Positions 31,228 through 54,109 of a stretch of 64,000 nt of DNA are shown here, piece by piece. Made by a program: the position numbers and the translations under genes. Numbering within the stretch: the first letter of the stretch is position 1; each line of letters begins with the position of its first letter. The DNA comes from an uncultured Flavobacteriales bacterium (GTDB taxonomy: Bacteria > Bacteroidota > Bacteroidia > Flavobacteriales_D > Crocinitomicaceae): NCBI GenBank assembly GCA_913054135.1, contig CAJXJK010000008.1, positions 62,001 through 126,000 on the forward strand. The letters run 5' to 3'. The notes under the pieces are model-generated. The model ran no database searches. It worked only from the letters and a program-made list of their open reading frames with translations, and had not been told where the DNA came from.

Positions 31228-31785
31228 ATGAAATTAATAGCCTCTTCCATTCTCTTTGTTTTTCTATTTTCTTGCTCATCTACTGAATCAAGTGAGGAGA
31301 AAAATGAAGATCCAAATGTTTCGACGGATACAACAGACCTCTTGATGGAAGATGAGGAATCTCCCCTTCCTGAAACTCGTTCTTTTTCCCTCAAAGAATT
31401 TCCCTCAGTTTGGTGGATGATTACTGTAGAAGGCGAAGAGATGAAACTCATGAACTATTGGGACTCACAACTTCAAGGGTTTGAAATATCAGCTGAAACT
31501 GAAAGCACGGGCTTTATTGACTTAACTTATGGTCAAGATGGTGATGCAGGACCTCTATTTGATTTTAATGCAGAAATAACTGAGGGTGATGGCTTAACGT
31601 TAATAGACGGCAGCTTTTCTTTCATAGGTACTATGGAACAAGATACCACAGACGTCACTTTTCAATATAACCGATTGAGTCAATGTGCCGAATTCAAAGG
31701 TATGTATTACAGCTCTGAAACCTTCGTTGAAGATTCTTTAAAAGATGTATTTCCTTATATAGAAACTGTAAGGGAAGAGGATTAA
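31228..31785 (+). CDS. lipoprotein of the WD40-caspase operon
   Basis: This is a 185-residue predicted lipoprotein: the signal sequence ends in a lipobox-like FLFSC with the modified cysteine at residue 16, followed by a Ser/Glu-rich spacer as seen in surface lipoproteins of Bacteroidetes. The globular part (about 45-185) is beta-rich and not recognised. It lies 5 bp after the OmpA-like gene, so it is the fourth gene of the exported-protein operon. Its stop overlaps the convergent glyS gene by 4 bp, with no terminator between. Confidence 0.7.
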   Translation: MKLIASSILFVFLFSCSSTESSEEKNEDPNVSTDTTDLLMEDEESPLPETRSFSLKEFPSVWWMITVEGEEMKLMNYWDSQLQGFEISAETESTGFIDLTYGQDGDAGPLFDFNAEITEGDGLTLIDGSFSFIGTMEQDTTDVTFQYNRLSQCAEFKGMYYSSETFVEDSLKDVFPYIETVREED

Positions 31786-33329
31786 GCTTGTCCCGCCTTT
31801 AGTAGCTTTCTCATACTAACTTTAGCATCAATGATTGAATGAAGATCTGCTATCGCAACTCTATCTTGTGCCATAGTGTCTCTATCTCTAATCGTGACCG
31901 TATTATCCTCTAAAGTTTGATGATCAACAGTTACACAGAATGGAGTTCCAATCGCATCAGCTTTTCTATAACGTTTTCCGATCGTGTCTTTTTCATTGTA
32001 TTGACAGTTAAAGTCAACTTTCAAATCATCCATTATTTTTCTAGCCACATCTGGTAATCCATCCTTCTTAGTTAATGGAAGAATACCCACTTTATAAGGT
32101 GCCAATGCCGGTGGAATAGACATCACTACTCTTTCAGAACCATCTTCTAACTTTTCGTTTTTCAATGATTTTGACATCACTGCTAAAAACATTCTATCTA
32201 AGCCTATTGAAGTTTCAACTACATAAGGCACATAAGAATCATTGATTTCAGGATCAAAGTACTTTAGCTTTTTTCCTGAATGCTGTTCGTGTTGTTTTAA
32301 ATCAAAATCAGTTCTTGAATGAATTCCTTCTAGCTCTTTAAAGCCCATTGGAAAATCAAACTCAATATCGGCAGCCGCATTTGCGTAGTGCGCCATTTTC
32401 AAGTGGTCGTGAAAACGATATGCATCATCTCCTAACCCCAAAGCTTTGTGCCATCTGATTCTAAAATCTTTCCAATGCTCATACCACTTCATTTCTTCAC
32501 CAGGACGAACAAAAAACTGCATTTCCATTTGTTCAAATTCACGCATTCTAAAAATAAATTGTCTTGCAACAATCTCGTTTCTGAAAGCCTTCCCAATTTG
32601 AGCAATCCCAAAAGGAATTTTCATTCCGCCTGATTTTTGAACGTTTAGGTAATTCACAAAAATTCCTTGAGCCGTTTCAGGTCTTAAATATATTTTAGCC
32701 GATTCACCAGACACAGAACCTAATTCTGTTGAGAACATCAAGTTGAATTGCTTAACATCTGTCCAGTTTTTTGAACCTGATAGTGGGCAAGCAATTTCTA
32801 AATCTTCAATCAGCTTTTTTAAATCATCTAATTTTTCATTTACCAATGCGTCTTGCATTCTATCCTCAATCTTCTTAATCTCTCCTGCTCTTCTTAATAC
32901 ATTTGGATTGGTATTTCTGAATTCTTCTTCGTTAAAATCATCACCAAAACGTTTCAATCCTTTAGCAACATCTTTGTTGATTTTACCTCTAATTTTTTCA
33001 ATATGTTCTTCAATCAAAACATCAGCACGATATCTCTTTTTAGAATCTTTGTTATCAATCAATGGATCATTAAAAGCATCTACGTGACCTGAAGCTTTCC
33101 AAGTTTCAGGATGCATAAAGATTGCAGCATCTAAGCCAACAATGTTTTCGTGCATATGCACCATTGCTTTCCACCAATAATTTTTGATGTTATTTTTCAG
33201 CTCAGCACCTAACTGTCCATAATCATATGTCGCACTTAATCCGTCATATATTTCTGATGAAGGAAATACAAAACCGTACTCTTTTGCGTGTCCGATTACG
33301 TCTTTTAACTTGTCTTCTTGTGCTGCCAT
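31782..33329 (-). CDS. glyS: glycine--tRNA ligase, homodimeric type
   Basis: This is a class II aminoacyl-tRNA synthetase of the alpha2 type (515 residues), which charges tRNA-Gly. Motif 1 and 2 regions are visible: FNLMFSTELG, LRPETAQGIFVNYLNVQKSGGMKIPFGIAQIGKAFRNEI and the class II motif 3 region with SIGLDRMFLAVM. The C-terminal anticodon-binding domain begins near PPALAPYKVGILPL. The ATG at 33329 is at the expected N-terminus. It is divergent from the phenylalanine hydroxylase leader. Confidence 0.95.
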   Translation of the reverse strand: MAAQEDKLKDVIGHAKEYGFVFPSSEIYDGLSATYDYGQLGAELKNNIKNYWWKAMVHMHENIVGLDAAIFMHPETWKASGHVDAFNDPLIDNKDSKKRYRADVLIEEHIEKIRGKINKDVAKGLKRFGDDFNEEEFRNTNPNVLRRAGEIKKIEDRMQDALVNEKLDDLKKLIEDLEIACPLSGSKNWTDVKQFNLMFSTELGSVSGESAKIYLRPETAQGIFVNYLNVQKSGGMKIPFGIAQIGKAFRNEIVARQFIFRMREFEQMEMQFFVRPGEEMKWYEHWKDFRIRWHKALGLGDDAYRFHDHLKMAHYANAAADIEFDFPMGFKELEGIHSRTDFDLKQHEQHSGKKLKYFDPEINDSYVPYVVETSIGLDRMFLAVMSKSLKNEKLEDGSERVVMSIPPALAPYKVGILPLTKKDGLPDVARKIMDDLKVDFNCQYNEKDTIGKRYRKADAIGTPFCVTVDHQTLEDNTVTIRDRDTMAQDRVAIADLHSIIDAKVSMRKLLKAGQA

Positions 33330-33397: not shown

Positions 33398-33405
33398 TAT
33401 ATTTG
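33398..33405 (+). promoter_or_regulatory. -7 element of the phenylalanine hydroxylase transcript
   Basis: TATATTTG is an exact match to the Bacteroidetes -7 consensus TAnnTTTG and lies 14 bp before the leader-peptide ATG. A TTTG occurs at 33381-33384, but at a shorter distance than the usual -33 spacing, so the upstream element is not settled. Confidence 0.5.
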
Positions 33406-33419
33406 AAGCAGAAAAACAA

Positions 33420-33482
33420 ATGAATTCAATTTCATTACATAGCACTTATTATTACTGGACACTTCCTGACGGGACTGTGTAG
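33420..33482 (+). CDS. attenuator leader peptide with Tyr-Tyr-Tyr-Trp codons
   Basis: This is a 20-codon leader frame, MNSISLHSTYYYWTLPDGTV, ending in TAG at 33480-33482. Codons 10-12 are TAT TAT TAC (33447-33455) and codon 13 is TGG. Its only sensible role is to sense charged tRNA-Tyr (and perhaps tRNA-Trp) by ribosome stalling. It lies directly after a -7 box and before the antiterminator and terminator of the phenylalanine hydroxylase gene. No other function is suggested. Confidence 0.75.
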   Translation: MNSISLHSTYYYWTLPDGTV

Positions 33483-33522
33483 TAATCGTTTGTACTTACA
33501 AATATTAATTACAAAACCCGTC
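33451..33522 (+). promoter_or_regulatory. transcription attenuator: pause and antiterminator hairpins
   Basis: Two alternative folds are visible. The pause hairpin pairs ATTACT and ACAC (33451-33462, covering the Tyr/Trp codons) with GTGT and AGTAAT (33477-33486). The antiterminator pairs GACGGG (33468-33473) with CCCGTC (33517-33522), GTAAT (33482-33486) with ATTAC (33508-33512), and TTTGTA (33489-33494) with TACAAA (33497-33502). It uses CCCGTC, which is also the 5' arm of the terminator. Stalling at the Tyr codons leaves the antiterminator free; reaching the stop codon disrupts it. Confidence 0.7.
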
Positions 33523-33548
33523 TCGGTTCTACCAAGATGGGTTTTTTT
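33513..33548 (+). terminator. attenuator terminator before phenylalanine hydroxylase
   Basis: A 15-position stem (33513-33527 with 33531-33545) has 13 Watson-Crick pairs, one G-T pair and one mismatch, a TCT loop and a run of seven T (33542-33548). It ends 41 bp before the ATG of the hydroxylase, so it controls readthrough into that gene. Confidence 0.8.
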
Positions 33549-33589
33549 ATGGACTCAATTTGGCTGAAAGAGGCAACAACAAAAAACAA

Positions 33590-34312
33590 ATGAATACTTT
33601 ATTGAAACAAGAAATGAGCAACTATACTTCAACCGATCTTGAAGTGTGGGAAATATTGTTCAATCGTCAAATCGGGAATCTTCAAAGCAAAGGGAGTGTT
33701 CATTACTTGGATGCTCTAAATAAAATGTCTGATGTTTTGAATGCTTCAGAGGTTCCTGACTTTAGCAAGTTGAATGATTTTTTTAGTCAAAATACAGGAT
33801 GGGAAATTGCGGTAGTTCCGGGTCTGATTCCTGTAGAAGATTTCTTTGATTTGTTAGCAAACAAAAAGTTCTGTTCTTCTACTTGGTTGCGAACTAAAGA
33901 AAATCTTGATTACCTAGAAGAACCTGATATGTTTCATGACATTTTTGGACACATTCCTTTATTGGGGAATCCAATTTTCTCAGCCTTTGCACACGAGTTT
34001 GGCAAAATAGGAAAGAGCATGAAGCACAATGAATTGGCACTTGTTCAACTTCAAAGACTGTACTGGTTTACCATTGAATTTGGTGTAATTAGAGAATGTG
34101 ATATTAAATCATATGGCGCCGGCATCATGTCTTCTTTTGGAGAGACGAATCGCATTGCAAATAAAGAATGTGAATTTCTACCTTTTGATATTGAGATGAT
34201 CCTAAACAAAGAGTTTTGGACTGATCGGTTACAAGAAGAATATGTTGTTATTGAATCTTTAGATGACCTGTTTAATTGTCTCCCTAAAGCTGCAAAACTG
34301 ATTGGTGTTTGA
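33590..34312 (+). CDS. phhA: phenylalanine 4-monooxygenase (aromatic amino acid hydroxylase)
   Basis: This pterin- and iron-dependent hydroxylase converts phenylalanine to tyrosine. In the 240-residue protein the iron ligands are visible: H116 and H121 in PDMFHDIFGHIPLL, and E163 in YWFTIEFG. SYGAGIMSSFGE follows, as in the bacterial single-domain enzymes. The start chosen is the ATG at 33590; the frame is open back to a TTG at 33560, which would overlap no known sequence feature. Expression is likely controlled by the attenuator at 33420-33548. Pterin recycling is supplied by the dehydratase gene at 36632. A tryptophan hydroxylase activity cannot be excluded from sequence. Confidence 0.9.
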   Translation: MNTLLKQEMSNYTSTDLEVWEILFNRQIGNLQSKGSVHYLDALNKMSDVLNASEVPDFSKLNDFFSQNTGWEIAVVPGLIPVEDFFDLLANKKFCSSTWLRTKENLDYLEEPDMFHDIFGHIPLLGNPIFSAFAHEFGKIGKSMKHNELALVQLQRLYWFTIEFGVIRECDIKSYGAGIMSSFGETNRIANKECEFLPFDIEMILNKEFWTDRLQEEYVVIESLDDLFNCLPKAAKLIGV

Positions 34313-36631: not shown

Positions 36632-36868
36632 ATGAACTGGACAGAGGTAGATAACAAGCTAACTAAGAAATTTGAAACGAAAGATTTTTCAGAGCTCACA
36701 GCCAAGCTAAATGTAATAGCAGTAATTGCTGATGAAATGGATCATCACCCTGATTTCAAAGTTTGGGGTTATAACAAAATTGAATTCTCTTTGTCAACAC
36801 ACACCTCTAATTCTGTTACAGAGATGGATTATCAATTAGCTGAGCACATTAATGAAGTGTTTGGCTAG
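36632..36868 (+). CDS. phhB: pterin-4a-carbinolamine dehydratase
   Basis: This small enzyme (78 residues) dehydrates 4a-hydroxytetrahydrobiopterin, the product of phenylalanine hydroxylase, so the pterin cofactor can be reduced again. The signature DHHPDFKVWGYNKIEFSLST (residues 37-56) contains the catalytic histidines H38 and H39, with a third at H57. D66 and the terminal helix AEHINEVF also match the family. It is a single gene, about 2.3 kb from phhA with three leftward genes between. Functional linkage is established family knowledge; co-regulation is not shown here. Confidence 0.9.
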   Translation: MNWTEVDNKLTKKFETKDFSELTAKLNVIAVIADEMDHHPDFKVWGYNKIEFSLSTHTSNSVTEMDYQLAEHINEVFG

Positions 36869-54043: not shown

Positions 54044-54109
54044 TCACTGTTGCTCATCTGGAATGATGACAATAATTGAAATGATAATAATGTTTAATCC
54101 TACGTTCAT
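54044..54109 (-). CDS. second ilv leader peptide
   Basis: This is a 21-codon frame, MNVGLN followed by IIIISIIVIIPDEQQ. It has eight Ile and two Val codons, mostly in one run, and a TGA stop at 54046-54044. Its ATG lies 9 bp past the T-run of the first attenuator terminator. The Ile/Val run lets a ribosome stall when charged tRNA-Ile or tRNA-Val is short. It is the second of two tandem leaders before ilvE. Confidence 0.75.
   Translation of the reverse strand: MNVGLNIIIISIIVIIPDEQQ

Follow-up and report, generated by a model that had tools for sequence, protein, structure and literature searches.

The window, by which we mean the whole stretch of 64,000 nucleotides analysed, carries on its plus strand a gene for a biopterin-dependent aromatic amino acid hydroxylase, and ahead of this gene lie a short leader ORF containing a run of Tyr codons and a set of overlapping hairpins ending in an intrinsic terminator (Table 1). 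The Biopterin_H domain (PF00351) of the hydroxylase is matched at E 8.6e-40 (137.2 bits, cut-off 22.7), and phenylalanine 4-monooxygenase models score best among the function models; the best NCBIfam model, TIGR01267, gives 237 bits, under its equivalog cut-off of 264.75, so that we infer phenylalanine to be the substrate. The gene upstream of the leader, for a glycine-tRNA ligase, is divergent, and the terminator is therefore not part of an upstream gene on the plus strand. At a distance of 2.3 kb downstream of the hydroxylase, with opposite-strand genes between, lies a pterin-4a-carbinolamine dehydratase-like gene, the product of which would be predicted to recycle the hydroxylase cofactor.

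Table 1. Positions of the hydroxylase leader, its neighbouring genes and the other leaders of the same genome (window coordinates unless stated otherwise)
Feature	Position	Strand	Remarks and basis
Putative -7 promoter motif, TATATTTG, a match to TAnnTTTG	33398..33405	+	sequence; motif recurs in relatives
Leader peptide ORF, MNSISLHSTYYYWTLPDGTV	33420..33482	+	20 codons, ATG 33420, stop TAG 33480-33482; sequence, relatives
Tyr codons TAT TAT TAC (putatively regulatory)	33447..33455	+	codons 10-12; sequence
Trp codon directly 3' of the Tyr run	33456-33458	+	sequence
Protector hairpin (1:2), Tyr codons with bases at and after the stop codon	33451..33486	+	MFE fold
Antiterminator, GACGGG 33468-33473 with CCCGTC 33517-33522, two further stems inside	33468..33522	+	stalled-ribosome fold
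Intrinsic terminator	33513..33548	+	T-tract 33542-33548; sequence, fold, covariation
Biopterin-dependent aromatic amino acid hydroxylase, probable phenylalanine 4-monooxygenase	33590..34312	+	ATG preferred over TTG 33560
Glycine-tRNA ligase gene, divergent, upstream of the leader	31782-33329	-	gene order
Pterin-4a-carbinolamine dehydratase-like gene	36632..36868	+	PF01329, E 1.8e-18
Tandem leaders MKALSIITISISVIIIMM then MNVGLNIIIISIIVIIPDEQQ, ahead of the ilv operon	54244-53982	-	terminator after each
His leader MNINQLHHHHLHNCSQAKWK	L207 1501-1563; own genome C4:16315-16442		covariance model match

An earlier note on this DNA had described a 20-codon leader with the codons Tyr-Tyr-Tyr-Trp, a three-part antiterminator and an overlapping terminator, and all of these, with their coordinates, hold in the sequence. 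When both states were folded, a ribosome at the first Tyr codon, with the RNA taken only up to the terminator 3' arm, left the three-part antiterminator, and a ribosome at the stop codon left the terminator only. The leader RNA (33420-33560, 141 nt) folds at -36.5 kcal/mol, with a z-score of -4.46 relative to dinucleotide shuffles, none of which (0 of 200) folded as well. The 5' arm of the terminator can pair instead with the last leader codons; taken alone, the window locus gives p 0.045 for this antiterminator match against dinucleotide shuffles, and its Tyr-codon helix is not significant (p 0.21). The terminator was absent from the plus-strand output of a simple terminator scan, and is supported by the folds and by the relatives of the locus.

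In order to compare relatives, we took the best 80 of 581 loci from a scan of genome contigs, with hydroxylases of 49-73% identity, 78 of which had enough upstream DNA (L029 and L042, with short upstreams, were left out of the count); the controls came from the same loci and were the 242 upstreams of other ORFs, called mechanically and 150 aa or longer. A short ORF with an ATG start and at least three Tyr in six codons, no more than 260 nt upstream of the gene, was found at 55 of the 78 loci and three of the 242 controls, and with at least four Tyr in six codons at 33 of the 78 and none of the 242, although, as the loci are related, these counts are not independent. All 20 amino acids were tested on the same 78 upstreams, and the next after Tyr, with its 55, was Leu (21); Phe scored 6, and His and Trp none. 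Some loci missed by the strict rule, for example L065 and L074, have looser Tyr leaders by eye. The tyrosine codons to which the earlier note had drawn attention are thus conserved in relatives, and a Phe-sensing leader was rejected, Phe-rich leaders being so much the rarer in these upstreams.

The structural comparison drew on 110 upstreams, namely those of the window, of the 80 loci and of 39 order-level stretches after removal of ten duplicates; 69 leaders were called. A terminator lies 3' of the leader stop codon in 66 of the 69, and we give the figure in this form because two of the three leaders then dropped (L069 and L102) were without a terminator, which makes the statement that every kept leader has one circular; the third, L024, had a hairpin of -3.4 kcal/mol and a chance-like ORF. 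One leader with only two Tyr (L004, FYY) was kept by explicit exception. From the 66, a greedy pick at 70% alignment score gave 38 non-redundant leaders, in which the median distance from the first Tyr codon to the stop is 11 codons. Irrespective of any leader call, terminator-like hairpins, defined as those below -11 kcal/mol with a T-tract, were found within 120 nt before the gene at 61 of the 78 loci, compared with ten of the 242 controls.

The best complement of the terminator 5' arm falls at the leader stop codon (-22 to +18) in 61 of the 66 loci, where 39.8 (sd 3.9) would be expected from a shuffled region. Locus by locus, the strength of the antiterminator beats dinucleotide shuffles at p<0.05 in 35 of the 66 and does not in the other 31, and the Tyr-codon helix is individually significant at that level in 27 of the 66. 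Arm-swap permutations, in which the pairing of each of the 38 non-redundant loci with its own arm was compared with pairing swapped between loci, gave p 5e-5, the floor of the procedure, for every helix: own against swapped values were -9.5 and -7.2 kcal/mol for the antiterminator, -17.5 and -10.1 kcal/mol for the terminator, and -9.5 and -7.3 kcal/mol for the helix that joins the Tyr codons to the nucleotides following the stop. Pairs were counted for the terminator only, and the antiterminator was judged by arm swap, because the MAFFT alignment (A1) loses the antiterminator register. In the 38 leaders, nine of nine terminator pairs have changed on both sides, and the covariation score is 0.539, as against 0.232 after shuffling and no more than 0.203 after sliding. 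The alternative stems that the earlier note had proposed therefore covary in relatives, each of the three helices being weakened by swapping, and the Tyr codons, the terminator, the antiterminator arm at the stop codon and the covariation of all three helices are each established by comparison of sequences. Both the Tyr codons and the competing arm are conserved in a leader that otherwise varies, and inspection of the alignment by eye shows conservation nowhere but in the Tyr codons, the helices and the T-tract. In the same alignment an Asn-Thr stretch (AACACATATTAT) often precedes the Tyr run and, since in loci inspected by eye part of it pairs just 3' of the stop codon, RNA structure may be what keeps it.

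Close to the leader start lies TAnnTTTG, which we take to be the Bacteroidota -7 promoter motif. In 24 of the 38 non-redundant loci it is found in the 25 nt before the leader start, and it is absent from the 3693 nt examined further upstream at the same loci. The spacing to the ATG that is most often seen is 4 nt (nine of 51 occurrences among the 66 leaders). Transcription of the hydroxylase leader probably starts some 8-11 nt 5' of the leader ATG and, because the motif adjoins that ATG, the mRNA is probably leaderless or nearly so.

The effect of ribosome position was followed in an occupancy model that treats the ribosome as a hard block on the leader RNA. Where the ribosome occupies the first Tyr codon, and before the terminator 3' arm has been made, pairing of the antiterminator exceeds 0.5 in 37 of the 38 leaders (0.56 in the window); where it occupies the stop codon, this pairing is below 0.2 in 36 of the 38, largely because the model hides that arm. 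The partial transcript of the window locus gives 0.55 for the antiterminator with no ribosome and 0.43 when a ribosome occupies the last Tyr codon. At equilibrium with a stalled ribosome it is the terminator that dominates (0.88 in the window, mean 0.92 over the 38) and, as it wins in nearly all states, the switch must act during transcription. Timing during transcription matters in any attenuator.

We propose, with a probability of roughly 0.9, that the locus is a ribosome-mediated transcription attenuator in which the Tyr codons read the supply of tyrosyl-tRNA and which controls phenylalanine hydroxylase, a reading that draws on sequence comparison and folding. Transcription would start just 5' of the leader ATG and a ribosome would load at once. 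When charged tRNA-Tyr is scarce, this ribosome would stall at codons 10-12 (33447-33455) and open the Tyr-codon hairpin, leaving the final codons of the leader, together with the nucleotides that follow its stop, to pair with the terminator 5' arm and the bases 5' of that arm; with the antiterminator so formed, polymerase would continue into the hydroxylase gene. With ample tyrosine, the ribosome would instead reach the stop codon and cover the antiterminator arm, so that the terminator would form and transcription would end. It seems most likely that the gene is switched on only at tyrosine shortage, the tyrosine response being predicted in both its direction and its size and, because the enzyme makes tyrosine from phenylalanine, the loop would amount to product repression.

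The presence or absence of the leader follows the hydroxylase tree, which has 102 rows, 64 of them with a leader (L018, its frame broken after 92 residues, L029, L042, L076 and 14 duplicate or broken rows were left out): 11 changes are required, compared with 30.9 when the labels are shuffled, and none of 500 shuffles was as low. One group of the tree has the leader in 52 of its 59 rows, the leader recurs in neighbouring groups, and the close hydroxylases L046 and L118 have none; a history read from this tree would need several losses or gains. In the order-level sample, PF00351 was found in 43 of 150 genomes, and a Tyr-rich ORF in 17 of 39 upstreams, L102, without a terminator, among them (G053 and G057 were left out, and G000 was already in the set). 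In the phylum sample, at least 133 of 392 genomes have PF00351; 80 stretches were taken from these and 79 upstreams scanned, of which five (L173, L175, L178, L181 and L182) have a Tyr leader with terminator. All five belong to families of the same class (f14, f16 and f18), two of them (L173 and L178) repeating the peptides of L015 and L007, and a Tyr leader with terminator was absent before every scanned upstream from genomes marked as sharing only the phylum. The leader was also absent before a hydroxylase type of about 590 aa in two pieces (13 upstreams), where the lone Tyr-rich ORF, L194, has no terminator. Two stretches, L121 and L185, were too short to be included in the scans.

Four genomes of family f18 (L172, L177, L184 and L180) have a terminator preceded by a mixed leader of Tyr and His, for example MNPTPRTYIHHSHYYLQ, which the strict Tyr rule missed. 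Tyr and His codons are both read by queuosine-type tRNAs. In three genomes of family f19 (L168, L169 and L190) a terminator is present with, by eye, a matching arm upstream, and the leader-like ORFs there are without a Tyr cluster, for example MMLQQSVKCFDLTINRPAGNGVGLHCRYRN.

A covariance model built only from Tyr leaders was run on the genome to which the window belongs, with 150 of the 2447 first-look candidates scored, so that further leaders may exist there. Its top match, at 66.9 bits, was the window site itself; the second, at 51.2 bits, was a leader with five His codons before hisG-hisD; and the third, at 46.7 bits, was an Ile-rich leader before ilvE, at position 54109 of the window on the minus strand. 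The next match scored 39.2 bits and 27 matches reached E 1; three lower-scoring matches were checked, and no leader ORF was found there. The ilvE leader is the second of two in tandem, and the operon behind them includes ilvE, ilvD and ilvA, so that the pair is probably a double Ile/Val attenuator. In each case (Tyr, His and Ile) the identity of the codons is that of the pathway product, and the hydroxylase is in this respect wired like a tyrosine biosynthetic gene.

The genome that contains the window has no match to prephenate dehydrogenase (PF02153) or to prephenate dehydratase (PF00800), for each of which 14 of 14 control genomes were positive, and it does have chorismate synthase; it is a draft in 24 contigs, 98.47% complete, and the absence of prephenate dehydrogenase is therefore not proof. 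Neither enzyme was detected in G136, a single-contig genome of the same genus that has the leader. Among the 36 leader-positive genomes scanned, nine, seven of them Psychroflexus, have a prephenate dehydrogenase above 100 bits together with the dehydratase, eight have the dehydratase only (in L002 with a 21.6-bit sub-cut-off dehydrogenase match) and 19 have neither (L080 with a 24.0-bit sub-cut-off match), and thus 27 of the 36 are without a strong dehydrogenase match. Many of the leader-positive genomes are draft metagenome bins; L059 is listed as a complete genome, and L007, L022 and L045 as strains. Cultured carriers of the leader include a Psychroflexus isolate and Fluviicola chungangensis, in the latter of which neither the dehydrogenase nor the dehydratase was detected. 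A match to PF02153 counted as prephenate dehydrogenase only from 50 bits upwards; the weaker ones of Balneolaceae, at 42-45 bits, lie above the Pfam cut-off and could be genuine, and the loci concerned are without a leader. The idea that all carriers are without prephenate dehydrogenase was rejected on account of the nine genomes above 100 bits. In the carriers that do lack it, tyrosine is probably made from phenylalanine, to judge from gene content.

4-Hydroxyphenylpyruvate dioxygenase (HPPD) is over its cut-off in 37 of 38 genomes, that of the window included and that of L033 being the exception; the notion that carriers are without aromatic catabolism was rejected on this evidence, which counts against a purely anabolic role and points to catabolic use as well. 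The argument of the earlier note that the logic closes because the enzyme makes tyrosine has thus gained from the apparent lack of prephenate dehydrogenase and dehydratase in its own genome, but is less simple than was supposed, since, with HPPD present, the enzyme may head a catabolic route too.

Two further loci show a different arrangement. In L062 the hydroxylase is without a leader and lies downstream of trpB-trpA-DAHP synthase (families tested), and the translations give the order trpB-trpA-DAHP synthase-hydroxylase in L063 too; no Tyr- or Phe-rich ATG leader was found in the stretch examined at either. Across the 150 genomes of the order-level sample, all at least 90% complete, prephenate dehydratase was found in only 14, and prephenate dehydrogenase in 14 at E 0.001, seven over the cut-off and four above 100 bits; the controls of this dehydrogenase search were positive in 13 of 14, so that its absence counts are slightly less safe than those of the search of the window's own genome (14 of 14). 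This scarcity would point either to a wide loss of Phe/Tyr synthesis in the order or to unusual enzymes.

The Tyr-Tyr-Tyr-Trp run seen in the genus might imply a broader aromatic sensing, with Trp shortage opening the gene too. YYYW occurs in the window and in its three nearest hydroxylase relatives (L002, L003 and L110), Trp also comes after the Tyr run in L023 (YYYYW) and L049 (YYIYW), and GACGGG begins 12 nt past the first base of the Trp codon, placing a Trp-stalled ribosome at its edge; we nevertheless consider Trp sensing unlikely, because the 38 non-redundant leaders have eight Trp to 141 Tyr and because the hydroxylase does not produce Trp. Another rival is a T-box, or a riboswitch that responds to tyrosine or phenylalanine as a metabolite. 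The tyrosine T-box senses the charging of tRNA-Tyr and controls termination, its RNA binding the tRNA directly, without a leader peptide. Such control is stated for tyrosine genes of other bacteria in a passage that lists tyrosine as T-box controlled and phenylalanine as under attenuators (PMC1262725), but either device is scarcely credible at the hydroxylase, where an Rfam scan of the window gave no family, T-box included, at the gathering threshold, and where, by eye, the conserved positions are those of the Tyr codons, the helices and the T-tract. That the terminator is unregulated, merely setting a low level of expression or yielding a short RNA or leader peptide that acts in trans with no sensing of tyrosine, would fit its dominance at equilibrium in nearly all modelled states, and a trans-acting attenuator peptide, peTrpL, is reported (PMC7298713); the joint conservation of Tyr codons and competing arm in an otherwise variable leader makes this very improbable.

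The mechanism could also be as proposed and the physiology different, with a mainly catabolic hydroxylase and an attenuator that limits the drain of phenylalanine to homogentisate while tyrosine is plentiful. The nearly general occurrence of HPPD speaks for such a role, which we nonetheless find doubtful: a catabolic gene is expected to be on with excess substrate, whereas the hydroxylase is predicted to be off when tyrosine is plentiful, most of the carriers scanned are without a strong prephenate dehydrogenase match, and the leaderless hydroxylase of L062 stands in a biosynthetic operon. Taking the proposed tyrosine-sensing attenuator together with the gene content, we lean, with some reserve, towards a free-living Bacteroidota lineage with an animal-type tyrosine metabolism. 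The prephenate dehydrogenase branch would have been lost, phenylalanine would come from food or be made with prephenate dehydratase alone, and tyrosine would be made only by hydroxylating phenylalanine, which the first tyrosine-specific leader-peptide attenuator would divide between protein synthesis and the homogentisate route.

The hydroxylase leader has in common with the trp, his and pheA attenuators of E. coli, and with that of pheST, a leader ORF with regulatory codons, the protector, antiterminator and terminator, a stop codon at the antiterminator arm and a terminator before the gene; it differs from them in its Tyr codons, in a gene that converts one amino acid into another, in its Bacteroidota host, and in an mRNA that is probably near-leaderless, with the promoter motif near the ATG. 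The AroR leader of the aroF operon in Corynebacterium glutamicum is likewise an aromatic leader peptide (Phe-Tyr-Phe) on an aromatic gene but, according to a review, responds to Phe and not to Tyr (PMC11802643). The earlier note had called attenuators of this kind familiar in proteobacteria, which is right as to the class and too narrow as to its range, given the His and Ile leaders of the same genome and the putative leader-peptide attenuators on amino acid operons of Flavobacterium psychrophilum, of the same phylum and mechanism class, in a statement that names no tyrosine leader or hydroxylase (PMC9723704). A passage from 2010 has it that no leader-peptide system was known outside Proteobacteria and Actinobacteria before that paper's own Firmicutes case (PMC2965389), and the part of another paper that places putative attenuators ahead of tyrA operons, one of them in Bacteroides thetaiotaomicron, mentions none on phhA (PMC1173090). 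As to the enzyme, phenylalanine hydroxylases of Dyella, Legionella and the Bacteroidota member Echinicola belong to the same family and have the same proposed role, tyrosine being made through them according to the GapMind text, which in the portion concerned gives fitness data and no regulation (PMC7311316). Among the matches listed from open-licence papers, none describes a tyrosine-codon attenuator on phenylalanine hydroxylase, and it appears that the mechanism class is old and that the specificity for Tyr, the gene and the lineage are new.

If the proposed attenuator is real, leader-peptide attenuation would gain tyrosine as a sensed amino acid and phenylalanine hydroxylase as a target, in a phylum for which such attenuation is barely described in the portions of the literature drawn on here. 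It would also bring evidence from regulation to bear on the question of an anabolic or catabolic role for bacterial phenylalanine hydroxylase, as a gene predicted to be off when tyrosine is plentiful would be run as a tyrosine-making gene. For the reading of genomes, a simple rule would follow, namely that an organism with a Tyr-leader hydroxylase and no prephenate dehydrogenase should not be called a tyrosine auxotroph.
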